A DNA stretch of 40,520 bases from Litorilinea aerophila (lineage in GTDB: Bacteria; Chloroflexota; Anaerolineae; Caldilineales; Caldilineaceae): the NCBI GenBank assembly GCA_945905745.1, contig CAMDQF010000013.1:1-40520 (forward strand). Reading direction: 5' to 3'. This document shows positions 22,046 to 40,520 of this stretch, piece by piece. The notes under the pieces are model-generated. The model was not told where the DNA came from, did no database searches, and saw only the letters and a program-made list of their open reading frames with translations. The first letter of the stretch is position 1. The number at the start of each line of letters is the position of its first letter. The translations under genes were made by a program, and so were the position numbers.

Positions 22046-22192
22046 GTAGGTTGGGTTGTTTCGGCTGGGGAAATCATCACCCACACGCAAAGATTGTGCC
22101 GAAACAACCCAACACCCAACGCGCATTGTTGGGTTCTCCCGGCGGCCGTTGGTTCGCAGACCACGATTCCTTGCCGGGAGAACCCAACCTAC
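22046..22192. repeat. Composite GTAG...CTAC element with two hairpins (BIME/MITE-like), between the two giant genes
   Basis: Hairpin 1 gttgggttgtttcggc (22050-22065) / gccgaaacaacccaac (22098-22113). Hairpin 2 gttgggttctcccggc (22128-22143) / gccgggagaacccaac (22173-22188). Outer ends gtaggttgggtt (22046) / aacccaacctac (to 22192). Confidence 0.9.
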
Positions 22193-25100
22193 CTTTCCAT
22201 TACCGGCAAGAAAATCCTCTCCACCGGCGGCGCGGTCTCTTCGCTCTGGCTGACGGCTCGGCCCCCGCCGCCGATGAGAGGCAAGAAGAGGGCTGGCTGT
22301 TCGCCACCGATGCCGCCGACGTCGTTGATGACGTCCGCGGCCACAGGGCCGCTGGCAACGGTCAACTGCACATTGGCCGCGTTGTAACCGACGCTGAAGG
22401 ATCGGCTGTCGTCGATGGCCCGGCCCGTCACCACCGGGAAAGTATTCTGCCGGCTGGAGGTAGTCAGAAAAGTAAAGCTGTTGCCGATCGTCGGCGTATA
22501 GGTAGCGCTGCGTTCGATGGCGAGGGTGCCGTCCAGGTCCGCGCTGCCGCTCACGGCGAGACGGCTGTAACTCGTGCCGGGGGTCGTCGTGCCTGCAATT
22601 TCAACCGCCAGCGTGCCGGTGATCGTCTGGGTGTAGCGTCCGGTGATGTCCAGATTGCCGTTGCGGGCGGGCCGCACGATGCCCGCGTTGATCAGGTCGC
22701 CAACAACGTTCAACTCAGCGCCGGCCTGGGCGATTGTGCCGTAGTTGGTGGTAAGACGGGCCTGCACCTGAGTGGGATAGGCCGAGGTGGACCCCAGGCT
22801 ACCGTAATTGATCAGGTGGACATCTGTCGTGTTGTTGATGCCAGCGGCCGTGCTGTAGCCGACAAAACCAGCCGCGCCGACGACGCTGATCCCGCCACCA
22901 ATCGTCAGGCTTGTGGCTGCCTGCGCCACACGCAAGCCATTGTTCTGGCTGCTGGTACAGGCGCTGCTGCGGTTGGGCAGCACTATCGTCGCCGTCCCGC
23001 CCAATGTCTGACTCCCCACAAAGTCCAGCCGTCCATTCTCACAATCCCCTGTCCCGCTGATCCCCAAGCGCACTGTCCCACTCAGCGCCAGCCCGTTTTG
23101 CACTGTCACTACCGCATTGCCCTGACTGTTGCGCCCCACGTTCAGATTGACGCCCTCGAAACTCACCCCGTCCAGACGGCTGTTGCCGTTGATGTATGTA
23201 ATTGTGCTGCCGTTCAGACTGCGCACCACCCCGCCCACCAGACTGCTGTTGTTGAAACGCAGCAGTCCGCTGCCTGTCAACGTCAGCACATTCGTGTTCG
23301 TAATCGTCACGCCGATTACGTCCAGATAGCCGCCTGTCGCTTCCAGTGTGGCGTTGTCATTCTCCCAATGCTGCCCCTGCAAGGCGATCCCACCCGTCCC
23401 GTTGGCGCTTACTTTGCCGCGCAGCACAACGCCGATATCCGTTGTCCCACCCACACCGCTGCTGTAGCCCACAAAGCCATAGTAGCCGTTGACGGTTATG
23501 CCGCGTTCGATGGTTAGGCTTGTGCCCGCCTCCACCACCCGCAAGCCGTTGTCCTGTGAGTCATAACAGGCGCTGCTGCGGTTGGGCAGCACTATCGTCG
23601 CCGTCCCGCCCAATGTCTGACTCCCCACAAAGTCCAGCCGTCCATTCTCACAATCCCCTGTCCCGCTGATCCCCAAGCGCACTGTCCCGTTGACAATCAA
23701 TCCATTGCGCACAGTAACAACGGCATTCTCATTCGTTGTCGTTCCTACATTGAGGGTCGCATCCACCCGCGCGCCGTCCAGCGTGCCGCCGCCGCTGCGC
23801 ACGGAAAGCCCCTGGCCGCCTGTGCCGGCGAGAATTTGCCCGCCCCGAATCGTCCCGCCGTTCAACTCGAAGGTCGTATTGACCTGCACCGGGCCGCCCG
23901 CGTCCAGCAAGCCGCCGCTGTTGACGCGCACGATACTGCCGCTGGTCAGACTGTAGAGTTGTAGTGTGCCCGTGAGAATCAGCGTGCCTTTGCCGCTGGG
24001 GATGACCACATCATCCAGCGGGCCGGGAAGCAGACCGCCGCTCCAGTTGGCCGGGGCAAGGAGATTGCCGTTGGCCGCGCCGATGAAGTTGACCTGCTCG
24101 CGCACGACAATATCGCCCACCGCCGTTGTGCCGGCGCGCACGGCGGGGACCGGCGTGGAACTGCCCTTCAGGTAAACGGTGCCGGAGGGGACGCGGGTAT
24201 CCACACGCAGGCTGCCGATAATTGTGCTGACACCCGCAATGCTAAATGTGCCGTCCCCACCGCTGACACCCGTATAGCCGCCGGTCACAGTAACCGTTGC
24301 ACCGGCTTTCACCCCACCGCTGCCGTCCACCACCCGGCCTGTGACCGTCGTGCCGGGGTCCGCGCCCAGGCTGGCACTGATGTCGAGCGCGACGCCGCTG
24401 TTGCCTTCGGTGTCGGTGACAAGCGCACCGACGGTCAGGCTGCTGCCGCTGGCCGGGACGCTATAGATGAGCGCGTAGGGCGCAGTCGTGTCTGTGCCTA
24501 CTGATGCGCCGTCCACCAGAAAAGTGACCGCGGCCACCCCCGTATCGTCCCCGGCGTTGGCGGTCAGCGTCGTCGTCTCGCCGTGTACCAGCGGATAGCC
24601 AGCCGTGGGGAAGGTGATATTCACCAGCGGGTCGCTGGAGAGGATCACATCCAGACGCAACGAAAGGACAAAAGCCCCGAAGCTGCCAGTCACTCGCCCG
24701 CGGAAACCGCTGGCCGGGTCCACAGCATCCACAGTCACGCCGCCGGGCAGGACGAAGGGCACAGTGTAGACACCCGTCGCATTGCTGGTGGCAGTAAACG
24801 TTCCATTGCTGGCGAGAATATCCAGCGCCGCGTTGGCAATCAGGCCGCCGCCGCTGAAACGCACCACACCAGTCAATGGGCCGCCCGGTTCTACGACGGT
24901 GGCGGTGAAGGGAGCGCTGAGTCCCACATTCCCGCTGGTGTCGGTCACGCGCGCCGTGACGGTCAGGAGGCTGCCCGCGGCCAGGTTGGCTGGGACGGTC
25001 AGGGCAAAGCTCCTACTGGTGGTAGGAGCCGGTGGGGTGATTAAGACGGTCGCTGACGCTCCCGTTTCTGCGTTTTCAAAGCCCACCGATGCCACTTTCA

Positions 25101-28100
25101 CCTCATCCAGGCCGCCGACGGTCAGATTGAGGGTGACGCCCTGCACCACCCGGTTGTCGGGCGGGTTGACGGTCAGCGTCGCGGTTGGGCTGAAAACATC
25201 GCGCACGGGCAATGTAACCGAAGCTACCGGCGAAGTCTGGCCCGCAATGTCTACCGACCGAACCAGGAGCGTCAGCGACTGGTTGCCCGTGGCGTTGACC
25301 GGAATAGTGACGGTGAAAGTCGTCTGGGTGCTGGTCGTCGCCGGACTGACGCCGGTTGAGCCTGTCGAAACCACAACGCCGGAAGTAGTGAGCAGCAGCG
25401 CCGTCACCCCTTCGTTGTCGCTGCCGTCCACGACAATCGCCACCTCTGCGCCGGGATCGACGAGCGTACCATTGGCCGGGCTGGCGATGCTCACCGCCGG
25501 GGCCACCACATCACTGATCAGCAGCGTGCGGGTGATCTGCCCGCTGCTCTGCCCCCGGCTGTCCAAGACCGTCGCGGTCAGGTGCAGCGTACTGTTCAGT
25601 GGCGCGCTGTCGGGCACGCTGACAGTAAAGAGTGGGCTGGTCGTGCGCCCGCCGACGGCAACGCTCTGGCTGGGCGTCACAGCGGGCGAAGCCTCCAACG
25701 TCACACTGGAAAGGCTCAGATCGTCGGTGATGGCGAGGCGCACCTGCACGTCCGCACCCCGACCCACCCGACTGCCGGCGGCGGGGCTGGTGAAGTTGCC
25801 TGTGGGCGGGTTGTCGCTGATGACAGTGAATGTCACCGACGCAGAAGTGCCCAGATTGCCGCTGGTGTCCGTGGCCGTCCCGGTGACAGTGACGATTGTC
25901 CCTGCGTCCACGCTGGCCGGGACGGTAAAGGTGAAGTTGCGGCTGGCGGTCGTAGCCGTCGGACTGATGACTCGGTTGCCATTCGTTTCCACACCTGTGG
26001 ATGCGTAGCCAACCGACGCGATGCCCACTTCGTCAGTGACAGTCAGTGTAACGCTAATGGCGTCGCCCTGCACCACCCGTGTCAGGGGCAGGTTGACCGT
26101 TACTGTCGGGCCAAGAATGTCGCGCACGCGCAGGGTCAGGCTGGCAGACGCGCTGCTGTTGCCTTCCCGGTCTACGGCCACAGATTGGACAGTAATGCTC
26201 TGGTTGCCCGTTGCTGTGACGGGAATCGTCAGGCTGAGCGTCACCGGCGCGCTGGCGTTGGCCGGATCAACCGCATAACTGGTCACACCCGAAATTACAC
26301 CGGTGGCGGTGAAGGTGACTCTCGCCACCGCGTCATTATCCGTCGCCAGAACACTCACATCCAGCGCCGCGCCGGGGTCGTGCAGGCTGTTGTTGGCCGG
26401 ATCGGTGAAGCTGAGGGTCGGCGCGGTCACGTCGCCCACCAGCAAAACGCGCACGGCGCTGGACGCGTAGCCCCGGCTGTCGGTGACTGTTGCCGTCATC
26501 GGCACGCTGCCAAGCAAATCTTCTGGAATATCGAAGACAAAATTGTGGATGGCGCTGGTGCCGGTGAGAACCACGGCGGGCGGATTGCCAATCCGCCCTA
26601 CGTCAAAGGAGACGGCGCTCAGGCTCAAATCGTCAGTCAAGGCAACAGTTACCGTCACCCGCTGGCCGGGGCCGAACTTTGCCCCCTCAGCCGGGCTGGT
26701 GAAGACGACACCCGGCGGCATATCGGCCAGAACCGCGAGCGTCAGCGAGCTGCTATTCCCCACATTGCCGCTGGTATCCGTGGCGACGCCGGTCACAAGC
26801 AGTTGACCCGGTGTGGCGTCCAGCGCCGCGCTGATCGTAAAGGTGCGGCTGGCGCTGGCGGATACCGGTGTGACGCCGGTCACTGCACCCTCCCCAAAGA
26901 CGCCGCTAACGCCGAAGCCGATGTGGGCCAAGCCGATGTCGTCGGTTGCCACGACAGTCACGGTCAGACTGGTGCCCTGAATAATGGACGGACTGACAGT
27001 CCGTCCTACAACGCTGACGGCGGGCGGTACCACATCCCGCACCCGCAGCGTGCGGGTGACGGGGATGGAGAGGTTGCCTCTTGTGTCCTGGCCGCGCAGG
27101 GAAAGGGTGACAATCCCGTTGGACGGCGCGTTGGCAGGAATCGGCACAGCAAAACTTGCCGCTGCGTTTGTCTGGGCAGGGGAGACCGTCCGCTGGTCAG
27201 CGAAGGTAGCCGCGCCGGAGGCAGAGAGGGTAATGAGGGAAAGACCGTCCACATCCACCGCCTGCACTGGGACGTTCACCGTCTCGCCCGGCGTGACAAG
27301 CGTATCCTGCGCCGGGCTGACGAAGAGCAGTTGCGTGCCGGTGACGACTACCGTCCATTGGGCGAAGTTGCTCACCTGATTTTTGCTGTCGGCGGCGCTG
27401 GCCTGGAGTGCGATGAGGCTGCCCAACGACGCGTTGGCGGGCACAACGACGACAAATGTGCGGGAGACGGTCTGGCTGGATGGGTCAATTGTGGCGGCAA
27501 AGGTTGTGTTGACACCACCCGTACTCTGGGCAAAGAGACGGCTGACCGCCAAATCGTCGGTGGCCTGCACGGTGACACTGAAGGGGTAGCCAACTTCGAC
27601 GGTCGTTGTCAAGGGCGAAAGGAGCGTAGCCACTGGCGGCGTGTCGTCCAGAACAGAGAGCGCCAGCCCCGTGTCCGGGCTGACGTTGCCGGCGTTGTCG
27701 GTAGCCCGCGCCGCAATCGTCAGCCCCGGCCCCATCCCCGCCTCCACCTGCAAGAGCAGTTCGTAGGGGGATTGGGTGTCGCTGCGCCGCAACGCGCCGT
27801 TGACGTAGAAATCCACCTGGCGGATGTCGTCGTGGCCGACCGCAATCTGGGCCGTAGCGATGAGACTCTCGCCCACAATCACCGATGGGCTGCGGCTGCT
27901 GCTCAGGCTGGCGATGGCGGGCGGGATGATGTCCAGGCTGGTGAAACTGAGATTCTGTCCGGCAGGCTGGGTATTCCCGGCCCGATCCGTGGCGGGTAAA
28001 ATCGTGGCGCTGTAGACGGCGTTGGGGGTCAGGGGCGCGTTGGGCGTAAAGACGATCACGCCGTTGTTCTGGATAAAGTCCAGGCGACCAGCGACCGGCG

Positions 28101-31100
28101 ACCCATTTCGGAAAAGTTGGATGGCGGACGCGGGGAAGGCAGCCGGGTTGAGTGCCTCCGAGTATTGCGCCCGGATCACCGACTCCAGCGCCACATTCAG
28201 CGCGTTGTGCGCCGGGCTGAGGCTGGTGAGGCTGGGCGGCGTTGTGTCCTGGGTGGTGAAGCTGCTCACAAATTCGGCGATCAGCGCCTTACCGGAAAGG
28301 TCTTTCACACCGGTCTTGACTTTGACGTTCACCGTCGCAAAATCGGGATAGACAGTGGAAGGTGTAAATGTAAGCTGGCTGCCTGTCCCATTCAACACCC
28401 GATTTCCAGAGAGGAGTGCGCCACCCGCACTGACTTCAACAGTGGAAGCGCTGATTGTCGCCGGGTTGACCGCCTCGGAGAAGACAATCGCAATCGTGCG
28501 GGTGACAGGCTCGCCGCTGCTCCCGTTGGCCGGTGTCACACTGACAACCGTTGGGAAGCTCTCGTCCAACACCAGATCGCCCACATCCACAATTTGACCC
28601 TGGCTGGCGACGGTTGCGCTGCCGCTGGCTGTGCCGCTGCCCAGCGGGTCTTCCACGCCAATCGCGTATATGCCCAGCGGCAGATCGGCGAAGCTGAACA
28701 GACCGTCGCTGTCGCTGACGCCGTAACGTTTGACGCTGCCTTTGCTCAGTGTAATCGTCACGTCCGGCGCAGGGGTCGTGCCATCCTCGCGCAGAACGCG
28801 ACCCTTGATCGAACCGGCGGCTTGCAGCGTGATAGTTACTTGTGACGTACTTCCAGCGGCAAGCAGACTTCCATAAGCCGAACCGCCCAGCCCGCTGGTC
28901 TGGTTGCGCGCGCTGACGCTAAAATCGCCGATGAGTAGATTGTCAAACCGGAATGTGCCATTGGGCGCAGCCAGAATTTCGTCGTTGTAGCCTACGGGCA
29001 GATTGCTCTTGCGCTGTAGCTTCACCTGTGCGGAGCTGACGGGGTTGCCGCCGCCGTCCAAGACGAGACCGGTCACGCTCCCCGTACCCAACATCTGCAC
29101 GGGCACAGTCACGACTTCCGTGTGGAAGGTGACCGTGCCCGTGCTGCGCCCGGCGTCGCCGCCCACCTGGGCCAGGGCGGTCACAGCGAAGCCGCCCAGA
29201 GGCACATTCTGCACCTGATAGAAACCGCTGGCGTCCACTGTCGTGGAGCGGGTGGTGCGGGCGTAGTGTACCTCCACCTGTGCGCTGGTGGAGAGGCTGC
29301 CGTCGGCCAGTGTCACAAAACCCTCGACTGTCCCTCGCTCAGGCACGGCCAGCGTCACAGTTTTGGTGACGATCTGTCCTTCGCTGGCAAGAGTACCGTT
29401 GACGCTGCCGCTCCAGCCGGTGGGCCTGTGCGAGGCGGAGAGGTTGAAATTGCCGGCATTGACGCCGGGGAAGGCAAAGCTGCCGTCCAGACCGCTGGAT
29501 GTGTAGAGATCGTCACTGTCGTTGGAATGCAGACGCACAGTCGCTCCCGCCATCGCCGCCCCGGTCAGACTCTCGACGACGTAGCCGCGCACTTCGCCCT
29601 GCGGTCGCTCGCGGATGTCAACGGTGACGGTCTGCCCATTGACAGTAATCGCGCCGCTGGCGTATCCCTCGCGCCCGCTGATAAAGTCGAAGGCGTCCAG
29701 CGTAAAGCCAGCTTTGGGCACACCGGTAAAGCTGTAGACACCGCTGGCGTCCGTCGCGCCGTAGACATCCCGCCCGTCAAAACTGCTGGTCAGATGAATC
29801 TGGGCGTCGGCGATGGGGGTCGTGCCGTCGGCGCGCAGGAAGCGCCCCTGGACTGTGCCGAATTCGTCAGGCACGGTAATCGTGACTGTGACTGTTTCGC
29901 CCGGCGCGGGGAGCGTGCCGCCGCGGAAGCCTTTACCGCCGTTGGCCGGGTTGGTGGCGTGGACGCTAAAACCGCCTTCCCGCACCACCGGGAAAGTGAA
30001 ATTGCCGAGAGCGTCGGTCTGGCCCGTGCGGCTCTCTTTTGTAAAGTTGCCCTCGCGCAGAAGCAACGGCGCATTGGCGATAGCCGCGCCTGTCGTGCCC
30101 ACAACTCTGACAGCCACACTGCCCGTGCCCAGCAGTCGAATGTCCACCACCGCGTGGCTGCCCGCTTTGACGCCACCATCGCTGCGCCCGGTCAGCCCGC
30201 TCGCATCCAGGGCGGTGACATTAAAATTGCCTGCGCTGATGAGGGTGACGGCATAAACACCGTTGGCATCGGTCGTCACGGCCACATCGTGCATTGTGCC
30301 GGAATTGAAACGCACGACGACACCCTCGCCCACGGGCGTCACCCCATCGGGCAGATAGACGCTGCCACTGAGCGAGCTAGTGGCCTTGAGGGAGAGGGTA
30401 ATGTATGTGGTGTCGCCCAGACGAACTTCGGTGCTGCCAGCCACGTGGCCGTTGAAGGCGTTGGCCGCTTCCACCGCCACCGGCCCCACAAAGATATTCT
30501 CGAAGAGATAAGAGCCGCTGGCGGGGTCGTTGTCCACAATGCGGCTGAGCTGTTTGGTCATAAAGCCGACGCCAATCGTCTTGCAGGGAGTGAAGTGGAC
30601 CACATAATCACCGATCTTCACGTCCTGGTAGCACTGGGGGTTGCCGTCGTCTAGAATCTTGTTTTTGAGTACGACCAATTCGCTCAGACCCACTTGCGCG
30701 GCCAGCGGGGTGATGCCGTCGTCGTCCAAAATTGTCACACGCAGGCTGCCCACGCCCTGCCAGCGAATGTCGCCGTTGACCGTCTGGTTGTGGGCCGAGA
30801 CGCGCACGGAGCGGGCGTTGCCATCTTTGAAATCGGGCTTGAAGGCGCTGAGCAGATACTCCCCCTCCACCGCATAGGGGATCAGGTAGCGACCGTTGGC
30901 GTCGGTGCGGCTGCCCAGCAGCTTCGGGCCGACGGCGATGATCTCCAGATTGGGCACCGGCGTCACGCCGTCGGCTTGGGTGACGCGGCCGGCGATGCGC
31001 CCGACCGCGGGCAGACGCAGGGTGACAAAGACTGTCTCACCCGCCCGTACCAGATTGACGAGTGTCTGAACGAGCAGTTCGCCTTCGCTCACAAACGCCT

Positions 31101-34100
31101 GGATGCGCCGCTGGCCCAAAGGCATATCGGAAATGACAAAGCGGCCATCGGCGTCACTGTTCGTCAATTGCAGACCGCCGGCAATCGTCGCCCCTTCCAC
31201 CGACTGGCCTGCGCCGTCCAACACCTGCCCCTCAATCGTGCCCGTGCCGCCGAAGAGAATGAGATTGGCGGTCACGTCTTGCCCTGCCAAAATCGTCGTG
31301 GCCACGACGGCCGTCTCGAATTGGCTCTGATCGAAGGAATTGACCTCCACTGGGCCGGGGGGCAGAGCGGTGAGCTGGTAGTAACCGCTGCTGTCGGTGA
31401 GGGTGTAGCCGCCTTTGTTGGCATAGACAGCTACGCCCTCAGCGGGGGTCACGCCGTCAGCGCGGTAGACCCGCCCGCTGACGCTGCCCATCTCGCGCTG
31501 CACCCGATCCCTATTGATGAGGATCAGATCGATCAGCGTCGTCCCGCCGTCCGCGGCCACATTGGCCACGGCCTGGGCCTGGGAGCGGGTGGGCAGGTGG
31601 ATGGCTTCCAGATTGGCGTTGCCCACGGGCACACTGCCAAAGACAAAGCCGCCGCTGGCGTCGCTGGTGGTGATCTGGGCCACGCCGCTGGACAGACTGG
31701 TGAGGCCCACATCCGCGCCGGGCAGGGGCGTCACCCCGTCGGCGGCGAAGACGTGGCCGGCAACGGTTCCCTTGCCCTGAAAAATGAGCTTCAGGTCCAG
31801 GCGCTGGCCGTTGTAGCGAATTTGGGTTGAAAGTTCGGCCCGCGCGCTGCTCTCCGGATCGCTGGATTTGAAGATCGTCGGGTAGCTTGCCACGTAGTCG
31901 AAATGAAAATAGCCTTCGGCATCGGCGGATTTTGACGTAATTATCACCCATTGGATTTTGTCGCCGGCCAATATTTTCTGGACCAGTTGGATGGGTGCAT
32001 TGGGCACGGCTTCCCCGTCGGCCTGGACAACCTGCCCGTCCACCACACCGCCCATACCGGTGACGGTGATGGTGATGGGCAGGGTGACGGTGACGGGCGT
32101 CATCGGGTTGGCGTGGCGGTCATCGATATTGGCAACGGTCAACGTGCGGGGAATGAAGGGGCCGATGCCGTCGCGCAGACGGATGAAGGCCACCCGATTG
32201 CTGGGCTGAAGGACAGTCCCCAGCACCTGATTCTCGTCCACGCCGAAATTGACGATCTCTTCCGGCGTCTTGCCCTGCTGGGAGGCAGCGGCGCTGATCT
32301 CCTCGTCGAAAAGGACAGCGAGCAAGCGGCCAAAGCCATCCCGATTCGCGACTTGCACGGCACTGATCACATCCGGGCCGCTTTCGGGCAGGAGCGCGTC
32401 GCTGCTGGGCGCAATCTGCCCCTCGAAGAAGCCGTCGCCGTTGGCGTCCACATTCAGCACAATTTCGTGGGAGGAGCGGTTGCGCCCCGTATCGTAGACG
32501 GGCGCGGACAATTGGGCGCGCCCGCCGTTCTGGATGGCGACATCCGCAAAAGTGACCAGCCGCTGGCTGCCGGTGATGGGCATCAACACGCCCAAATCAA
32601 AGCTGCCATCGGCCACGCCAGTCAGGTCTACTGTGTGGCGGCCCGGCTGGGGCGCGGCGATGAGTGCGAAGTGGCTATAATTGCCCACTTCACCGCCCAA
32701 ATCAAAGAACTGGCCGTAGGGGATGGAACGCTGGATGGGCGCGCTGGCGCTGGCAATGCCCATCTGCTTGCCTGCCGGGTCTGTTACCTGCAGGACGACC
32801 GGCCCGCCGCCCGCGTCCTGCCCCACAATCACCGAAAAATGGGGCGGGCGAGAGACAGTGGCCGCCGCCATACGCTCTTGAAAATTCAGCACGCTGCTGC
32901 CCGCCACTGCCTGCCCAAAGACCGCGGCGAACTCCCGCGCCAACGCCTCGCCCCGGCGGGACTTGCGCATCAGTTGGTCAAAGGCGGCGAAATCGTCGGC
33001 GCTGACGCCACTCGCAGGCGTCAAGCGCGAAAGATTGTTGCTGGAAAAATCCAGGGCCAAATCCCAGGCAGCCGAGAGTTCCGGCTCGAAGAGGCTGATG
33101 CGCTGGCCCACCGCGGCCAGATCAAAGGCCCGTTCGTAGATCATCGCCTGCTTCACAGGCAGCAGGCCGATGGGGACAATCGGCGAAGTGGCCAGGGCGA
33201 AAGCCTGACTGAGCAGGCTGATAGCCTCGGCACGGATGCCCGCCGGCACGAAGTTGACCTCGCCAGGCATTTGCAGCACATTCGGGGAAAGGGGGATGCC
33301 CAACTCGCCCACGTCCATACGGAACTCGAATTTGCCCGGCGTATTTTCCGAAGCTAGGCTGCTGGCGACGACAGAGCCGGTCAGCAGCGCGCGCAGACGG
33401 AAGGTGGCTGTGGCCGAGTCGCCGGGGAGAATCGTATCGATCTGCACCCTTTCGTCGGAGAGCAGTTGCGCACCGGTCAGGCTGCGCGGCAGCAGGGAGA
33501 GGGTGGCGAAGTTGGCGGGCACATCCGAGATGTTCGTCACAGTGACGTGGAAATCGTAGTCTTCGCCCTGGTTGATCGTCAGCGGGTGGTTGAAGGTGAG
33601 GGTGAACTGGGGATCGCGCACTTCCAGCGTACCGACAGCCTTGCCTACGATGGCGACGGGGCCGGTGGGCAGGCCGTACAACTGGCCACTGATCTCAATC
33701 TCGACGGTGTGGATGCCTTCACGCAACCCTTCCACCAGAAATTCTGCGTTGCCGTCGTTGCCGGGGGCCAGGAAGGGGATGTCGTCGGCTGTGCCCAGCT
33801 CGCCGTCCGGGCCCGGCTGGACGACAGACAAGATTTTGGGCTGGAAGGCGGGCGGGTTGCCCAGGCGGGCCATACGCAGGGGATCGTCCTGTGAGCCGAC
33901 GACGCCATCTTTGCCGCCGGGCAGGAGAATCTCGCCCTGAATGTCGCGCACCACCAGATTCGATGTGCCGGGCGCGATATTGGAAACGAGCAGCAGCGCG
34001 CTGAAATACTGGTTGAGATAGGCGATGCGGCCAGGGAAAAGGATGACACCGGGCACCTTCGCCACCAGTTTACGCGTTTCGGGGTCGCACTCGCTGGCGC

Positions 34101-34848
34101 AATCCATCTGAAAGCCGGAGATGCCCAGGCTGGTGTACTCCAATGCGGGCGATTGGAAGACAACAGTCTCCAGTTTTTGCTGCGGCAAGCCACCGATGCC
34201 AGGTTTGAAAGTGATCTGGCGCGGCGGCAGGTCCGCCTGTCTGGGCAGCAGCACCGGAAAGGTGATGGGGACTTTCTTGCCCTCCACGCCGATGGCGACG
34301 GTGAAATCAACGGCTTTGTAGTTCTCCTCGTCGAAGAAGATGCCCTTTTCTTCGATTTCGTCTGCACTGAGGGCACGGGTCGTCACCTGCGAAACAATCA
34401 CTTTGTCGATGACTTCGATGCTGACACTGCCCGGTTCGCCCTGCAAAATCGTCGCGCCGCCGCTCTCCACGCGGATATTCTCGACGACGTACAGCCCTTT
34501 GAGCGGGATGGGCGGGATCATCAGCAGTTGACCGGGCAAGCCGGTCAGTTCGATGGCGGTCTGGAAGGCAGGCCCGCGCATAGAGGCGCGCACCACCGCG
34601 TCATCCGGCAGGCTGGGCAGCCCGCCCACCGACGGGTCCGAAGCGACGACGTTCATCCGAATGCCGGTGGCCGTGTGTTTGGGCACAGTCTGGTGGATGG
34701 GATCGGGCAACAACTGCGCGCCCAGCACGTAAATCGTCTCTTGCGTCAGAGGCGCAGGGGGCGACGCTACTTGCGCCAGGGCGGGCGTGACAGTCGCGGC
34801 GAGGAGGAGAAGGGCGAGAAGGAATTGGGCGAGCCTTTGTTTACGCAT
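22189..34848 (-). CDS. 4219-aa giant secreted protein: signal peptide, about 13 consecutive carboxypeptidase-regulatory-like domains, Big_5-like domains, Ig-like domains in higher-order repeats, beta-solenoid-like C-terminal region, C-terminal FLP motif
   Basis: MRKQRLAQFLLALLLLAATVTPALAQ; many units of G-x-V-x-G-x-V-x-x-x-D-G-x-T-P; PPTVVSVTPANGSSGEPVTRTIAIVFSEAVNPATI; ends VERIFLPVMER*. Start overlaps the upstream stop (TAATG). Confidence 0.9.
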   Translation of the reverse strand: MRKQRLAQFLLALLLLAATVTPALAQVASPPAPLTQETIYVLGAQLLPDPIHQTVPKHTATGIRMNVVASDPSVGGLPSLPDDAVVRASMRGPAFQTAIELTGLPGQLLMIPPIPLKGLYVVENIRVESGGATILQGEPGSVSIEVIDKVIVSQVTTRALSADEIEEKGIFFDEENYKAVDFTVAIGVEGKKVPITFPVLLPRQADLPPRQITFKPGIGGLPQQKLETVVFQSPALEYTSLGISGFQMDCASECDPETRKLVAKVPGVILFPGRIAYLNQYFSALLLVSNIAPGTSNLVVRDIQGEILLPGGKDGVVGSQDDPLRMARLGNPPAFQPKILSVVQPGPDGELGTADDIPFLAPGNDGNAEFLVEGLREGIHTVEIEISGQLYGLPTGPVAIVGKAVGTLEVRDPQFTLTFNHPLTINQGEDYDFHVTVTNISDVPANFATLSLLPRSLTGAQLLSDERVQIDTILPGDSATATFRLRALLTGSVVASSLASENTPGKFEFRMDVGELGIPLSPNVLQMPGEVNFVPAGIRAEAISLLSQAFALATSPIVPIGLLPVKQAMIYERAFDLAAVGQRISLFEPELSAAWDLALDFSSNNLSRLTPASGVSADDFAAFDQLMRKSRRGEALAREFAAVFGQAVAGSSVLNFQERMAAATVSRPPHFSVIVGQDAGGGPVVLQVTDPAGKQMGIASASAPIQRSIPYGQFFDLGGEVGNYSHFALIAAPQPGRHTVDLTGVADGSFDLGVLMPITGSQRLVTFADVAIQNGGRAQLSAPVYDTGRNRSSHEIVLNVDANGDGFFEGQIAPSSDALLPESGPDVISAVQVANRDGFGRLLAVLFDEEISAAASQQGKTPEEIVNFGVDENQVLGTVLQPSNRVAFIRLRDGIGPFIPRTLTVANIDDRHANPMTPVTVTLPITITVTGMGGVVDGQVVQADGEAVPNAPIQLVQKILAGDKIQWVIITSKSADAEGYFHFDYVASYPTIFKSSDPESSARAELSTQIRYNGQRLDLKLIFQGKGTVAGHVFAADGVTPLPGADVGLTSLSSGVAQITTSDASGGFVFGSVPVGNANLEAIHLPTRSQAQAVANVAADGGTTLIDLILINRDRVQREMGSVSGRVYRADGVTPAEGVAVYANKGGYTLTDSSGYYQLTALPPGPVEVNSFDQSQFETAVVATTILAGQDVTANLILFGGTGTIEGQVLDGAGQSVEGATIAGGLQLTNSDADGRFVISDMPLGQRRIQAFVSEGELLVQTLVNLVRAGETVFVTLRLPAVGRIAGRVTQADGVTPVPNLEIIAVGPKLLGSRTDANGRYLIPYAVEGEYLLSAFKPDFKDGNARSVRVSAHNQTVNGDIRWQGVGSLRVTILDDDGITPLAAQVGLSELVVLKNKILDDGNPQCYQDVKIGDYVVHFTPCKTIGVGFMTKQLSRIVDNDPASGSYLFENIFVGPVAVEAANAFNGHVAGSTEVRLGDTTYITLSLKATSSLSGSVYLPDGVTPVGEGVVVRFNSGTMHDVAVTTDANGVYAVTLISAGNFNVTALDASGLTGRSDGGVKAGSHAVVDIRLLGTGSVAVRVVGTTGAAIANAPLLLREGNFTKESRTGQTDALGNFTFPVVREGGFSVHATNPANGGKGFRGGTLPAPGETVTVTITVPDEFGTVQGRFLRADGTTPIADAQIHLTSSFDGRDVYGATDASGVYSFTGVPKAGFTLDAFDFISGREGYASGAITVNGQTVTVDIRERPQGEVRGYVVESLTGAAMAGATVRLHSNDSDDLYTSSGLDGSFAFPGVNAGNFNLSASHRPTGWSGSVNGTLASEGQIVTKTVTLAVPERGTVEGFVTLADGSLSTSAQVEVHYARTTRSTTVDASGFYQVQNVPLGGFAVTALAQVGGDAGRSTGTVTFHTEVVTVPVQMLGTGSVTGLVLDGGGNPVSSAQVKLQRKSNLPVGYNDEILAAPNGTFRFDNLLIGDFSVSARNQTSGLGGSAYGSLLAAGSTSQVTITLQAAGSIKGRVLREDGTTPAPDVTITLSKGSVKRYGVSDSDGLFSFADLPLGIYAIGVEDPLGSGTASGSATVASQGQIVDVGDLVLDESFPTVVSVTPANGSSGEPVTRTIAIVFSEAVNPATISASTVEVSAGGALLSGNRVLNGTGSQLTFTPSTVYPDFATVNVKVKTGVKDLSGKALIAEFVSSFTTQDTTPPSLTSLSPAHNALNVALESVIRAQYSEALNPAAFPASAIQLFRNGSPVAGRLDFIQNNGVIVFTPNAPLTPNAVYSATILPATDRAGNTQPAGQNLSFTSLDIIPPAIASLSSSRSPSVIVGESLIATAQIAVGHDDIRQVDFYVNGALRRSDTQSPYELLLQVEAGMGPGLTIAARATDNAGNVSPDTGLALSVLDDTPPVATLLSPLTTTVEVGYPFSVTVQATDDLAVSRLFAQSTGGVNTTFAATIDPSSQTVSRTFVVVVPANASLGSLIALQASAADSKNQVSNFAQWTVVVTGTQLLFVSPAQDTLVTPGETVNVPVQAVDVDGLSLITLSASGAATFADQRTVSPAQTNAAASFAVPIPANAPSNGIVTLSLRGQDTRGNLSIPVTRTLRVRDVVPPAVSVVGRTVSPSIIQGTSLTVTVVATDDIGLAHIGFGVSGVFGEGAVTGVTPVSASASRTFTISAALDATPGQLLVTGVATDTSGNVGNSSSLTLAVLADMPPGVVFTSPAEGAKFGPGQRVTVTVALTDDLSLSAVSFDVGRIGNPPAVVLTGTSAIHNFVFDIPEDLLGSVPMTATVTDSRGYASSAVRVLLVGDVTAPTLSFTDPANNSLHDPGAALDVSVLATDNDAVARVTFTATGVISGVTSYAVDPANASAPVTLSLTIPVTATGNQSITVQSVAVDREGNSSASASLTLRVRDILGPTVTVNLPLTRVVQGDAISVTLTVTDEVGIASVGYASTGVETNGNRVISPTATTASRNFTFTVPASVDAGTIVTVTGTATDTSGNLGTSASVTFTVISDNPPTGNFTSPAAGSRVGRGADVQVRLAITDDLSLSSVTLEASPAVTPSQSVAVGGRTTSPLFTVSVPDSAPLNSTLHLTATVLDSRGQSSGQITRTLLISDVVAPAVSIASPANGTLVDPGAEVAIVVDGSDNEGVTALLLTTSGVVVSTGSTGVSPATTSTQTTFTVTIPVNATGNQSLTLLVRSVDIAGQTSPVASVTLPVRDVFSPTATLTVNPPDNRVVQGVTLNLTVGGLDEVKVASVGFENAETGASATVLITPPAPTTSRSFALTVPANLAAGSLLTVTARVTDTSGNVGLSAPFTATVVEPGGPLTGVVRFSGGGLIANAALDILASNGTFTATSNATGVYTVPFVLPGGVTVDAVDPASGFRGRVTGSFGAFVLSLRLDVILSSDPLVNITFPTAGYPLVHGETTTLTANAGDDTGVAAVTFLVDGASVGTDTTAPYALIYSVPASGSSLTVGALVTDTEGNSGVALDISASLGADPGTTVTGRVVDGSGGVKAGATVTVTGGYTGVSGGDGTFSIAGVSTIIGSLRVDTRVPSGTVYLKGSSTPVPAVRAGTTAVGDIVVREQVNFIGAANGNLLAPANWSGGLLPGPLDDVVIPSGKGTLILTGTLQLYSLTSGSIVRVNSGGLLDAGGPVQVNTTFELNGGTIRGGQILAGTGGQGLSVRSGGGTLDGARVDATLNVGTTTNENAVVTVRNGLIVNGTVRLGISGTGDCENGRLDFVGSQTLGGTATIVLPNRSSACYDSQDNGLRVVEAGTSLTIERGITVNGYYGFVGYSSGVGGTTDIGVVLRGKVSANGTGGIALQGQHWENDNATLEATGGYLDVIGVTITNTNVLTLTGSGLLRFNNSSLVGGVVRSLNGSTITYINGNSRLDGVSFEGVNLNVGRNSQGNAVVTVQNGLALSGTVRLGISGTGDCENGRLDFVGSQTLGGTATIVLPNRSSACTSSQNNGLRVAQAATSLTIGGGISVVGAAGFVGYSTAAGINNTTDVHLINYGSLGSTSAYPTQVQARLTTNYGTIAQAGAELNVVGDLINAGIVRPARNGNLDITGRYTQTITGTLAVEIAGTTTPGTSYSRLAVSGSADLDGTLAIERSATYTPTIGNSFTFLTTSSRQNTFPVVTGRAIDDSRSFSVGYNAANVQLTVASGPVAADVINDVGGIGGEQPALFLPLIGGGGRAVSQSEETAPPVERIFLPVMER
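22959..23079. repeat. 121-bp direct repeat, copy 1
   Basis: caggcgctgctgcggttgggcagcactatcgtcgcc...ccccaagcgcactgtccc reads identical to 23568-23688. Confidence 0.9.
23568..23688. repeat. 121-bp direct repeat, copy 2
   Basis: Identical by eye to 22959-23079; offset 609 bp (203 codons, in frame). Confidence 0.9.
26578..26601 (-). repeat. GTAG-headed palindrome inside the coding sequence (translated VGRIGNPP)
   Basis: Minus strand GTAGGGCGGATTGGCAATCCGCCC: 10-bp arms around 1 nt. Confidence 0.8.
26986..27009 (-). repeat. GTAG-headed palindrome inside the coding sequence (translated VGRTVSPS)
   Basis: Minus strand GTAGGACGGACTGTCAGTCCGTCC: 10-bp arms around 1 nt, with paired substitutions relative to 26578-26601. 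Confidence 0.8.
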
Positions 34849-35936
34849 TACGGGTTCACCGTCACTTTCACTTCCACAGGCAGCGTCTCTGCGCCTTTGT
34901 CGTCCCGAACCACCAACTCGAAGGTGAGAATGTCCGGCTCGGCCACGAGGGGCGAGACGAAGTAGGGAGCAGCGGTGTTGGCATCAATCAGATAGACGAT
35001 GCGTCCGCCGGTCTGCTGCCAGCGGTAGGTGAGCGGGTCGTCGTCCGGATCGCTGCTGGCCGCAGCCGAGAGATGGGTCACTGTCTCGGTGGGCACAATC
35101 TGGGACAAACCCGCATCGGCCACAGGAATACCGTTCGGATCTTCGGAATCCAGTTGGACGACAATCTCCTGGGTTTCCACATAGCGCGCACCGGTCACGG
35201 GATGGACATTCGTCACGCGCAGAGTGGCCCGGCCATCGCTGCGCGCCTGGATGCGCCCAGAATCATCCACAGCCAGCACATCGGGTTTTGTGCTTTGATA
35301 GCTCGTGCCTCGCGTCGCCGTCGTCAGGTCGCGCTCGATGCCGTCGGCAAAGCGCCCGGTGACGAAGACTTGATCCACCTGGCCGGGGCGCAGGAGCAGG
35401 GAGGGGGCGTCAATTGTAAGAGATTCCAGCGCGCCGGGATTGACGAGCAGATCGACGCTGGCAACGTAGGGCTGGCCGTCTGTCCCAAGCCCTGTCAGCA
35501 TCAACCGCTCTGGGCCGACGGCGTCGGTGGGAACCGTTACGAGAATAGTGACGGTCAGCGCCGCAGCCGGGGAGAAGGCCAGCGCGCTGTCAGAACCGCG
35601 CAACGTCCCCGCAAAGAGATCGGTCAGGGCTACACCCACCGGCGCGACGATCTGCGCTTCGATCCCTTGGCCGGGAGAGACGATTGCGTTGGAGACCGGC
35701 GCGATTGTGACCAGTTCCGTCGTTGTCGGAGCCACGCGTGCGCCGTTGCGCGCGGTGGCGGGGGACGGTTTCACGTAGACGGGCGCGGGCGCTTCCCCTT
35801 CGCGGACAGCGGCGCGGCTGGTCGGGGTCTGGGGTTGAAGGAAAAAGCCGGCGCTGGGGTCAGCTTCCAGCAACGCGGCTACCTGGCAGGCGGTGTCCGT
35901 GCGGTCCGTAAAGCCGTGGCGCACATTGCCGTTCAA
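34848..35936 (-). CDS. BIG2-like plus PKD/REJ-like domain ORF; probably the C-terminal continuation of the upstream hydrolase after an in-frame TAG
   Basis: FADGIERDLTTATRGTSYQSTKPDVLAVDDSGRIQARSDGRATLRVTN...; PVADAGLSQIVPTETVTHLSAAASSDPDDDPLTYRWQQTGG. The annotated M is a TTG, and the only internal Met is about 150 codons downstream. Confidence 0.7.
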   Translation of the reverse strand: MNGNVRHGFTDRTDTACQVAALLEADPSAGFFLQPQTPTSRAAVREGEAPAPVYVKPSPATARNGARVAPTTTELVTIAPVSNAIVSPGQGIEAQIVAPVGVALTDLFAGTLRGSDSALAFSPAAALTVTILVTVPTDAVGPERLMLTGLGTDGQPYVASVDLLVNPGALESLTIDAPSLLLRPGQVDQVFVTGRFADGIERDLTTATRGTSYQSTKPDVLAVDDSGRIQARSDGRATLRVTNVHPVTGARYVETQEIVVQLDSEDPNGIPVADAGLSQIVPTETVTHLSAAASSDPDDDPLTYRWQQTGGRIVYLIDANTAAPYFVSPLVAEPDILTFELVVRDDKGAETLPVEVKVTVNP

Positions 35937-35951
35937 ATTCTGCCAGACCTG

Positions 35952-38900
35952 CTACAGATAGAGCTGACAGCGGGCGAGAATCGCATCCCGGGTGCCGGGC
36001 GGATAGGACTTAATGTCCAGATGGTCAAGTGGGCCTGCCACCAGTGTAATGGCGTTGTGATTGATTGCCAGTCCATCCCGCTGGCTGGCAGCGGGAACGA
36101 TGCGGTCGTTGCCCACAGGCAGAATCGGCTCCGGCAGGTTGGCATAGAGGCCGAGAAGGGCCCGATAGGTGTGGTAGAGCGCTTTCGGGTTGCCGGTGGC
36201 AATCAGCTTTGCCAGATTCCAGACAACGCCCGGCGAGGAACGAATCTGGTTGGTGCGGTCAATAGTGGTGGTGTCGGGTGTGAAGTTACAGGCGATAGCC
36301 AGCCCAGCCCAGAGCGCGCCGATTTGGGTGAAGTCCGTCAACCCTTCACCGCCGCCCAGGTTGGATGTGGTGTTTTCGCCCACAATGTAATGGCTGCTTA
36401 TCAGAACGCCCGCATTCTGCAGGGCAATCACCCGCACGCTGCCCTCGGCCAGATCGTCCACCGCGCCGCTATAGATATTGAGTTCGGGGAAGCTGACGGG
36501 AATACCCAAAATGGTAAACCCCTGGGAACCGACAGCGGTCAGATTCTGCAGAACCATTGCGCAGATGAGTTCCTCCGCCATATCATCGAATATCCCCGGC
36601 GCGACCTGTGGCACAAGCACATCTACCCAGGTGGAGTTGGCATCCAGCCGGGTAGAGTTCCTGATTTCGACGATTTTGCTGGCGACCGGAGAACCCAAAT
36701 GGGGTGTGCCTATCGTAATCAGTTTGCGGAAGATTGGCTTCACACTGTGCCACTCGACAAGCTGCCGCGATATCTCCCGGGTGAGCAGGCCGCCCATACT
36801 GTTGCCAACCACATCCACCCGGGCCACCGCATAGTTCTTCAAGGGAGGGCCTGTCAGCGCCTGCTTGAAAATTTCGTAATTCTTCTGGGCCTCGATGGCG
36901 ATTGGCTCCACAGAGCCGTTGCTACCCGCCGCGTAGAGCATAAAGCGCCCGTCGTAGCCCGCCACCGGCCAGGCCCTGTCCAGACTGACGCCGCTGTCCG
37001 GCACAATCGGACGGAATTCGTTCCAAGTGGTGGGGAAGCCACCCAGCCCGTGAAAGACAAAGGCAGGCGGGCGGATGAGAGTGATGGTTTTGACGCCGGA
37101 GCCGACATCCGACTGGAGGACTTCCAGACGCACTTTGCGCTCTTTGCGCGGCTTGTTGGGGGCTTCAAACGAGTCCTGTTGCCAGAACTCCTTGCGCACA
37201 AAGACCGGCGGCGGGATGTAATAGACGTTTGTTGTCTGGCCCAGCGTCGTCGGGTCGTTGACGGTAATCTGCGTGCCGGTCACAATCACCTGGCCCGCGC
37301 TGTCCGCGTGCAACAGATAGCCGAAACCTTCGGTGGCTTCAAAGACGGTGGCGTCTTTGAGAGTCAGGGAGATCGGCTCGGCGGGCAGTGTCGTCTGGTT
37401 GGGGCCAAAGGTCGTGGCCAGACCCACAGCAATCTCGATGCGCAGCCGGGATTCGGGGTCAGTGGTGGCCCCAGCTACGGGGATATCCTCGCCGTTGTCC
37501 CGCATATGCAGGACTTCGTAGCGGGAGATGGGATGGGTTTTGTCGTTGAGCGGCGAAGCGTCGATCAGCCGTATCTGGAAGGCTTTCAGTTTGGGCGAGA
37601 CGAGGAGATCGGCGCGGTCGTGGACGGGGCCGACAGAATTGTTGTCCGCATCCCGGGCTGTGGCGTATGCGTACTCGGCGTAGCGCCCCAGACTGTTTGC
37701 GCCAAAAGCAATGACTGTATCGAAGACTTCGCCTGGTTGCAGCAGTGCCTTCTCGATGCGCCGCTCCCGATCCGAGAAGACACGCACATTCTTCAGGGGA
37801 GTCTCCCCGTTGTTGCGCACGGTCAGCACCAACTCCACTTCGGTGTCCACCACCACTTCCAGAATTTTGACCCCGGCCTCGGCGCTGCCCTTCTGCCGCA
37901 GGGTCAGGTCAAAGTCCAGGGCGGGCGCGTCCAGGCAGATGGCGTCGGAGGCAAAGCTGCTAAGGACAAAGGCCGGGCGGGTTGTGACAGCGGGCACAGG
38001 CGGGTTGGTCTGGGTTTTGTCCAGGACGTAATAGTAGAAGCCGCTCTGGTTGTTCTCCCGATCGGCCTCCACAAACTCGTGATCCGGGTCGGCCACAAAG
38101 GCGACCGCGTGGAATTTGTCCGTACCCACGCCGATCTCCTCGCGGGCTTTGGGGATGGCGAAAAGCAGGGGGAAGATGGTGGATTGGGTCCACGCCTTCA
38201 CTTGGCCTTCGTAGTCCGGCAGTTCACCGGACGAAATGGAGGCGCAGGCAGGGGTCAGGGGCGGGCTGACCACAGGATTTTTGGAAACTTTCTTCTGGTT
38301 GATGACACTGCGTCCACCCGCAGGCAGGAAAGGAATTTCGTGGTAGACCAGCGCATCGGTGTATGCGCCGATCTCCTGGCCGGGGCCTTCGTAGAGAGCC
38401 AACGGCACGTCGTAAAGATCGTTGGGGCTTTCGTTGTTGAGCCGGGTTTGTAACACCCAAAAGACGCTGTTCTTGACGCCCAAATACTTCTTGGCCTTGC
38501 CGATCAGCCCGGAGTTTGGCCCCAGCACGTAGGAATCCCCAAAGAATTCCAAGCCGTGTTCCACATCTTTGCCGTTGACTTTGATGTCGGCCTGCTTCAA
38601 TACGCAGTTGCGCAGATCGCCCCGGGTGGCGTCCAGGGTCAGAGCGATGCCCATCTCCTGGCAGAGGTTACAAATCTCGCGGATGAAGGGGTAGTCCTGT
38701 AGTCCCTGCTCCGCGACAATCTGGCCCAGCGTCACTGTGTCCGCCGCGCTGCGAGCCGTATAGATGGCCAGGGTGGCGGTCTGGGTGCGTTCGATGAAGT
38801 CCAGGGCGGCGCGGATAAAAGTGTTGGCGGCCGCGTCGCTCTGGATGTAATTGATGGAGACGCCGCCCACCTGGCAGCCCTTCCAGACTTTGACACACCA

Positions 38901-40520
38901 GAAACTCCAGAGCAGGGGCAGGTCCGCCGGTGTGAAAACGTTGTAACCCCGGCGCACGCTCTCAATCGCCATTGACGCGATGTACTCTTCAAAACCCTCG
39001 CAGCGTTTCGGGTAATAGCCAAAGGAGTTGGTCGGCACAGCGGGCGCGGCGTCCGGGTTGACGCGGGTGGTCGTATCCTCCGGCGATTGGAGTTCGGTCA
39101 GACAGAACTCGCCCTTTTGCACATTGCTGCGCGTCAAAGGCAGGAGCAGATGCTCGTTGGTTTCCGGGTCCAGAAGCGGTGTGCCGTCGGGATGGTAACG
39201 GTAGACGCCGTGCAATAGCATTGCGTTGGTATTCGCATCACCCACCATCCGGGCGAAGACTGTGCGGATGGCGGATTTAGCAATCGTCTTCAACTGGGAT
39301 TTGCAGTCGTCGCGAAAGGCTTCGTTGTCCTCAAAGAAGCGGTCCGGGTCGTTGGGGGCCAGGATGGCCTCGCTGTCCCGCTCCTCAAACTGAAGTAGAG
39401 TCTGCGCATTCTGGCTGGTGAAATCGCAGCCGCTCTTGACCCGCAGCAGAGCGCTCATTTTGTAGACGTTGTACTCTTGCAGCCGCGCCCATTCGTAGCC
39501 CTCCACCCGGGGGATGCCCGACGGCTCACCGGCAAACATCGGGCGAGCCGGGTTGTTGCACACCCACTCCTGGGCACCGTTCACCTCTTCCTGATAAATG
39601 ATCCGATTGAGGGCCAGACATTCCACGATGCGGTCCAGGCTGGGGCCGAGACCGTAGGTGGAGACGGGCAGGCGACCGGCCAGGGGCGTGCCTTCGCCGT
39701 TAAAGCGGATGTAATCGCCGGTGGTCAGCAGCCAGAGCAGGAGCAGGGATTGGCGGCCCAGCCCCAGATCGCCGGCGGTGTCGCCCTCTTTGTTCATAGG
39801 CGGCGAACTGAGCAGCACGCCAGAGTTGAACGGCTCCGACGGCATGACAAAGAGCGAAAAATCGTCCAGACTTTTCATCAGCCGCGCATAGTCAGCCGTG
39901 GGCGGGTTAGCGACAAAATCGTCCAAGACCCCCTGGCCGCGGCGCACGAAATGGGCAGGCAGGAAAATCTCGAAGTCGTGATCACTCACGCCCGGCGTGA
40001 AAGCGGAACAGACTTGCAACTCGTGGCGCACAAAATCATCGCGCCAGAGACAGGCACCGCTGCCCTGCTCAATCATATAAACACTCTGGGGCTGCAATCC
40101 CGCAATGGATTGGGTGAGGGAATAGACCGAACCCGCCAGCAGAATCATCAGCGTCTCCCGCTCGGCGTAGAGTTCGCGCACCTTCTCGGCGTCTTTGTTG
40201 GAGTTGTTCCCGCCATCCGCGCCCGCCGGGTCGCCCGCTTGCTCTTCCTCCGCTGGATTGTATTGGATGTCAATTTTGCTCTCTGGCGGGGCTTTGGGGT
40301 CGGCGTCCTCGTCCACAAAGTTCTCGTACTTGCCCCGTTTGAAGTCCAGAGAGACGTCCTGACAGCTATTGCAGATGCGGACGATCTGCACGCCGTTGTT
40401 GAATTCGTTGAGATAGGCCAGGGGGCGGTTGTCGCCGGGATCGACGACAATCTCCTGGCGGTTGCTGATGCCCACCAGCCGGTAGAGTCCCAGGATGCGG
40501 TCGTCCAGATTGTTCTGATC
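35952..40520 (-). CDS. Large multidomain protein with a CARDB-like segment and C-terminal alpha/beta-hydrolase (lipase-like) domain; 5' end beyond the window
   Basis: Frame stays open to the window edge (DQNNLDDRILGLYRLVGISNRQE...; listed start is GTG). FVFHGLGGFPTTWNEFRPIV...VVGNSMGGLLTREISRQL...ITIGTPHLGSPVA...VGNDRIVPAAS...LDHLDI. Confidence 0.85.
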   Translation of the reverse strand, partial: DQNNLDDRILGLYRLVGISNRQEIVVDPGDNRPLAYLNEFNNGVQIVRICNSCQDVSLDFKRGKYENFVDEDADPKAPPESKIDIQYNPAEEEQAGDPAGADGGNNSNKDAEKVRELYAERETLMILLAGSVYSLTQSIAGLQPQSVYMIEQGSGACLWRDDFVRHELQVCSAFTPGVSDHDFEIFLPAHFVRRGQGVLDDFVANPPTADYARLMKSLDDFSLFVMPSEPFNSGVLLSSPPMNKEGDTAGDLGLGRQSLLLLWLLTTGDYIRFNGEGTPLAGRLPVSTYGLGPSLDRIVECLALNRIIYQEEVNGAQEWVCNNPARPMFAGEPSGIPRVEGYEWARLQEYNVYKMSALLRVKSGCDFTSQNAQTLLQFEERDSEAILAPNDPDRFFEDNEAFRDDCKSQLKTIAKSAIRTVFARMVGDANTNAMLLHGVYRYHPDGTPLLDPETNEHLLLPLTRSNVQKGEFCLTELQSPEDTTTRVNPDAAPAVPTNSFGYYPKRCEGFEEYIASMAIESVRRGYNVFTPADLPLLWSFWCVKVWKGCQVGGVSINYIQSDAAANTFIRAALDFIERTQTATLAIYTARSAADTVTLGQIVAEQGLQDYPFIREICNLCQEMGIALTLDATRGDLRNCVLKQADIKVNGKDVEHGLEFFGDSYVLGPNSGLIGKAKKYLGVKNSVFWVLQTRLNNESPNDLYDVPLALYEGPGQEIGAYTDALVYHEIPFLPAGGRSVINQKKVSKNPVVSPPLTPACASISSGELPDYEGQVKAWTQSTIFPLLFAIPKAREEIGVGTDKFHAVAFVADPDHEFVEADRENNQSGFYYYVLDKTQTNPPVPAVTTRPAFVLSSFASDAICLDAPALDFDLTLRQKGSAEAGVKILEVVVDTEVELVLTVRNNGETPLKNVRVFSDRERRIEKALLQPGEVFDTVIAFGANSLGRYAEYAYATARDADNNSVGPVHDRADLLVSPKLKAFQIRLIDASPLNDKTHPISRYEVLHMRDNGEDIPVAGATTDPESRLRIEIAVGLATTFGPNQTTLPAEPISLTLKDATVFEATEGFGYLLHADSAGQVIVTGTQITVNDPTTLGQTTNVYYIPPPVFVRKEFWQQDSFEAPNKPRKERKVRLEVLQSDVGSGVKTITLIRPPAFVFHGLGGFPTTWNEFRPIVPDSGVSLDRAWPVAGYDGRFMLYAAGSNGSVEPIAIEAQKNYEIFKQALTGPPLKNYAVARVDVVGNSMGGLLTREISRQLVEWHSVKPIFRKLITIGTPHLGSPVASKIVEIRNSTRLDANSTWVDVLVPQVAPGIFDDMAEELICAMVLQNLTAVGSQGFTILGIPVSFPELNIYSGAVDDLAEGSVRVIALQNAGVLISSHYIVGENTTSNLGGGEGLTDFTQIGALWAGLAIACNFTPDTTTIDRTNQIRSSPGVVWNLAKLIATGNPKALYHTYRALLGLYANLPEPILPVGNDRIVPAASQRDGLAINHNAITLVAGPLDHLDIKSYPPGTRDAILARCQLYL

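Follow-up and report, generated by a model that had tools for sequence, protein, structure and literature searches.

The window, the whole 40,520-nt stretch of Litorilinea aerophila DNA analysed here, carries part of a giant gene whose reading frame is interrupted by a single TAG. This in-frame stop occupies 35952-35954 of the minus strand and has a hydrolase frame on one side and a tail on the other, as the initial annotation had described. Its minus-strand context reads CGC TGT CAG CTC TAT CTG TAG CAG GTC TGG CAG AAT TTG AAC, with CTG as the 5' and CAG as the 3' flanking codon. Upstream of it, 1522 codons of open hydrolase frame reach back to the window's right edge. Beyond the TAG the same frame stays open for 367 codons and ends at a TAA (34848-34850). 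The 362-aa downstream ORF first reported is indeed in the same frame, but represents only the TTG-to-stop portion of this longer continuation. The features at the interruption are as follows.

35955..40520, minus strand: 3' part, before the stop, of a giant secreted alpha/beta-hydrolase-like gene; its 5' end lies on contig C43
35952..35954, minus strand: in-frame TAG interrupting the gene
34848..35951, minus strand: same frame beyond the stop, 367 codons closed by a TAA, comprising a linker, an Ig-like (Big_2-type) region and a C-terminal PKD domain
35934..35936, minus strand: TTG, the nearest possible restart codon 3' of the stop, lacking a convincing Shine-Dalgarno sequence and a signal peptide
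22189..34848, minus strand: next gene (4219 aa), intact and with no internal stop relative to its counterpart in a related genome (G026, below); its ATG overlaps the TAA of the interrupted gene (TAATG)

The open tail is a genuine coding frame. Shuffled tail sequence is expected to contain about nine in-frame stops, and 0 of 2000 shuffles came out stop-free. In the uninterrupted orthologues, moreover, the C-terminus is homologous to this tail in the same frame. Its Ig-like and PKD composition agrees with the BIG2/PKD tail named at the outset, as does the poor ribosome-binding site and missing signal peptide at the TTG.

The complete gene and its predicted hydrolase

The interrupted gene spans two contigs. 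The window's right edge (40520) cuts it, and its N-terminal half lies on contig C43, which belongs to the same assembly and shares an exact 149-nt overlap with the window end. In the joined sequence 3370 codons precede the TAG and 367 follow it, with no other stop inside the frame. The gene starts at an ATG at about C43:5624 on the minus strand, followed by MSRTTPLLRLLLVIAILLGMLPAPRLAAQ, an N-terminus that by inspection is signal-peptide-like in the typical way. The hydrolase is thus far larger than the window alone shows. This settles how the two window ORFs are to be annotated, namely as one interrupted gene completed by the second contig. The assembly break falls inside the giant gene, between the left end of C43 and the right end of the window. 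The region is present as one copy in the assembly, and the break with its 149-nt overlap is perhaps a graph fork caused by strain variation.

Domain content differs along the protein. The C43 part contains Big_5 and CarboxypepD_reg domains, the window part gives a weak serine-hydrolase profile match, and the tail holds the PKD domain. Within an 817-aa segment, motifs point to three predicted catalytic residues, all encoded upstream of the TAG.

36798..36800, minus strand: predicted nucleophile Ser (S168 of the segment) in SMGG, invariant in three orthologues
36105..36107, minus strand: predicted catalytic Asp (D399) in GNDRIVPA, invariant
36021..36023, minus strand: predicted catalytic His (H427) in DHL, invariant, 23 codons before the stop

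These triad-like motifs are invariant in the three sequences, and the hydrolase matches in Pfam all score below the gathering threshold. A PDB sequence search with the hydrolase returned no match. An AlphaFold (AF2) model of the 817-aa segment, built with three sequences, reached a mean pLDDT of 37; it was confident only for a beta-sandwich at about residues 530-720 and was unusable for the hydrolase part. In the model the hydrolase ends in a helix (435-456) that would contain the stop (residue 450), but confidence in this region is low and the placement carries no weight as evidence.

The gene belongs to a cluster of three giant secreted-type genes of about 3739, 4219 and 2086 codons, covering 15904-40520 of the window together with C43:1-5693. 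The cluster is rich in CarboxypepD_reg, Big_5, Big_7, FG-GAP and DUF11 domains. G026 has the three genes in the same order, but synteny does not extend to the genes on either side. The TAATG overlap at the junction with the next gene (34848-34851, minus strand) is replaced in both orthologous contigs by a TAG followed by a spacer. That spacer contains repeated CGTATTGCGTA-like units; further copies lie elsewhere on those contigs, but none in the 69 kb of this genome that we read.

Orthologues and selection

Orthologues encode the gene without interruption. We searched the family (46 genomes) and the class (396 genomes), and two orthologues bear on the codon, both from Caldilineaceae metagenome-assembled genomes: G026 (JAHBVF010000029.1, isolate ACE_CHL8) and G027 (JAHDWH010000007.1, isolate CHL15). 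Each is a single uninterrupted ORF spanning the whole query, of 3731 aa in G026 and 3848 aa in G027. G026 is 82% identical to the gene; G027 is 57% identical upstream and 43% in the tail. The same genus supplies a third sequence (G028, 79%), a fragment that stops short of the site, and matches outside the genus are mostly to the C-terminal PKD region or are short, weak hydrolase matches.

At the site itself, the codon aligned to the TAG is CAA (Gln) in G026 and GCC (Ala) in G027. The G026 stretch is near-identical around it, reading RCQLYL-Q-QVWQNLNGNVRHGF. Since both orthologues are uninterrupted and carry sense codons, the stop is, among the genomes compared, specific to this one, and the ancestral state was most likely one gene. 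The alignment thus bears out what the initial annotation had proposed as the simplest reading, a single gene broken by a nonsense change or a sequencing error. The glutamine it predicted at the site occurs in the closer relative, and the codon is sense in both relatives rather than a conserved TAG. Orthologues encoded as two separate genes, which would have spoken against that reading, were looked for and are absent, G026 and G027 both being fused.

The tail evolves like the rest of the gene. Against G026, dN/dS is 0.136 upstream of the stop and 0.133 downstream. With G027 as outgroup, amino-acid changes on this lineage and on the G026 lineage number 147:144 upstream and 17:17 downstream (Fisher p = 1), and by this comparison the tail shows no decay or lineage-specific acceleration. 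Either the stop is so young that decay does not yet show, or it is not truly present, or the tail is still made. An undecayed tail is what a recent stop, a segregating stop or an assembly error would leave, and a maintained readthrough predicts the same. We also sought internal stops in the two neighbouring giant genes common to G026 and found none, so this stretch is neither generally error-rich nor a decaying cluster.

Weighing the explanations for the stop

Taken together, we consider it highly probable that a gene of about 3,700 codons for one secreted protein acquired the TAG through a recent nonsense substitution confined to this lineage, be it a mutation that is real or segregating in the cells or a consensus error of the metagenome assembly. 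We infer its recency from the comparisons above.

Programmed readthrough would instead make the tail a regulated extension. An amino acid would be inserted at the UAG at a regulated rate, yielding short and long (tailed) forms of the hydrolase. The tail keeps its frame at a dN/dS like that of the rest of the gene, and UAG-CAG resembles leaky contexts of other systems, a point made when the site was first described. Such contexts are known mostly from viral systems. Recency, however, explains the conservation of the tail equally well, and the TAG is absent from both relatives and so is not conserved. Nor is there an unusually stable RNA structure 3' of the stop: z-scores downstream of the TAG were 0.30 and 0.38, a local scan gave z of about 0, and nothing exceeded expectation. 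This more exciting option of the initial annotation consequently found no positive support, and we regard it as very unlikely. A species-specific amber codon that is partly read through, producing soluble tail-less and tailed forms with the tail under selection, seems to us similarly improbable.

A functional gene split, with the tail translated separately by reinitiation at the TTG at 35936 or a nearby start, deserves little credence. The TTG lies 6 codons and a GTG 10 codons past the stop, near enough for reinitiation in principle, but the tail has no convincing Shine-Dalgarno sequence, no promoter match and no signal peptide despite its surface-type domain, and the orthologues are fused. 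A search near the stop for a tail-specific promoter or terminator found neither.

Amber recoding, the other alternative first raised, in which the organism would decode TAG as Gln or pyrrolysine, is strongly disfavoured and carries almost no weight with us. All that speaks for it is the occurrence of this TAG in an otherwise open frame. Against it, RF1 is intact (519 bits, over the cut-off), and PylS was looked for and not found. No CTA anticodon occurs among 44 tRNA-model matches, and the normal Gln tRNAs are both there. Long ORFs in the window and C43 end in TAG more often than in either other stop codon, and G026 and G027 terminate this same gene with TAG. TAG accounts for about half of the stops in that count, whose ORF list includes some spurious entries; two MFS transporter genes end at TAG with normal family length.

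Elsewhere in the genome, about 124 nt of contig C56 form a tRNA-like element (L103, G000:C56:21250-21550; match at C56:21340-21463, minus strand). Its acceptor and T arms are good, but some 55 additional bases separate the D arm from the anticodon arm. ARAGORN assigns it as Tyr(GTA) at 65 nt, and a normal tRNA-Tyr lies on C146. The element is possibly a pseudo-tRNA or an inserted sequence.

Possible consequences of a nonsense substitution and known parallels

If the nonsense substitution is real, translation would end at the TAG. The cell would secrete an alpha/beta hydrolase that retains the predicted Ser-Asp-His triad but lacks its Ig-like/PKD tail, which probably anchors the hydrolase or binds substrate. 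Because the predicted Ser, Asp and His all precede the stop, this terminated product could keep catalytic function yet lose the tail. More speculatively, since the gene overlaps the 4219-aa gene at TAATG, early termination could lower translation of that next gene through lost coupling. Overall, the locus is most likely not a case of recoding; it adds one example to the in-frame stops, short-lived or artefactual, that draft genomes contain.

Both versions of the nonsense reading have precedents. Bacterial in-frame stops can last only at the population timescale, with dN/dS below 1, and TAG/CAG alternation provides a worked example (PMC7918605). Like the cases of Belinky et al. 2021 (PMC7918605), this gene has a single stop, a conserved frame and dN/dS well below 1; their set, however, admits only stops shared by at least two species, whereas here it is found in one genome only. 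Assembly errors are a documented, common source of spurious internal stops (PMC11017572). As in the cases of Cooley and Wright 2024 (PMC11017572), we observe an isolated stop in an otherwise intact gene of a draft assembly; the neighbouring giant genes here have no excess of internal stops. The predicted enzyme itself resembles PGAP1/DUF676/DUF7379-type serine alpha/beta hydrolases, in that the SMGG nucleophile motif, GND and DHL follow one another as expected. It differs from them in its weak matches, below the Pfam gathering score, and in its setting within a protein of ~3,700 aa that also carries Big_5, CarboxypepD_reg and PKD domains.
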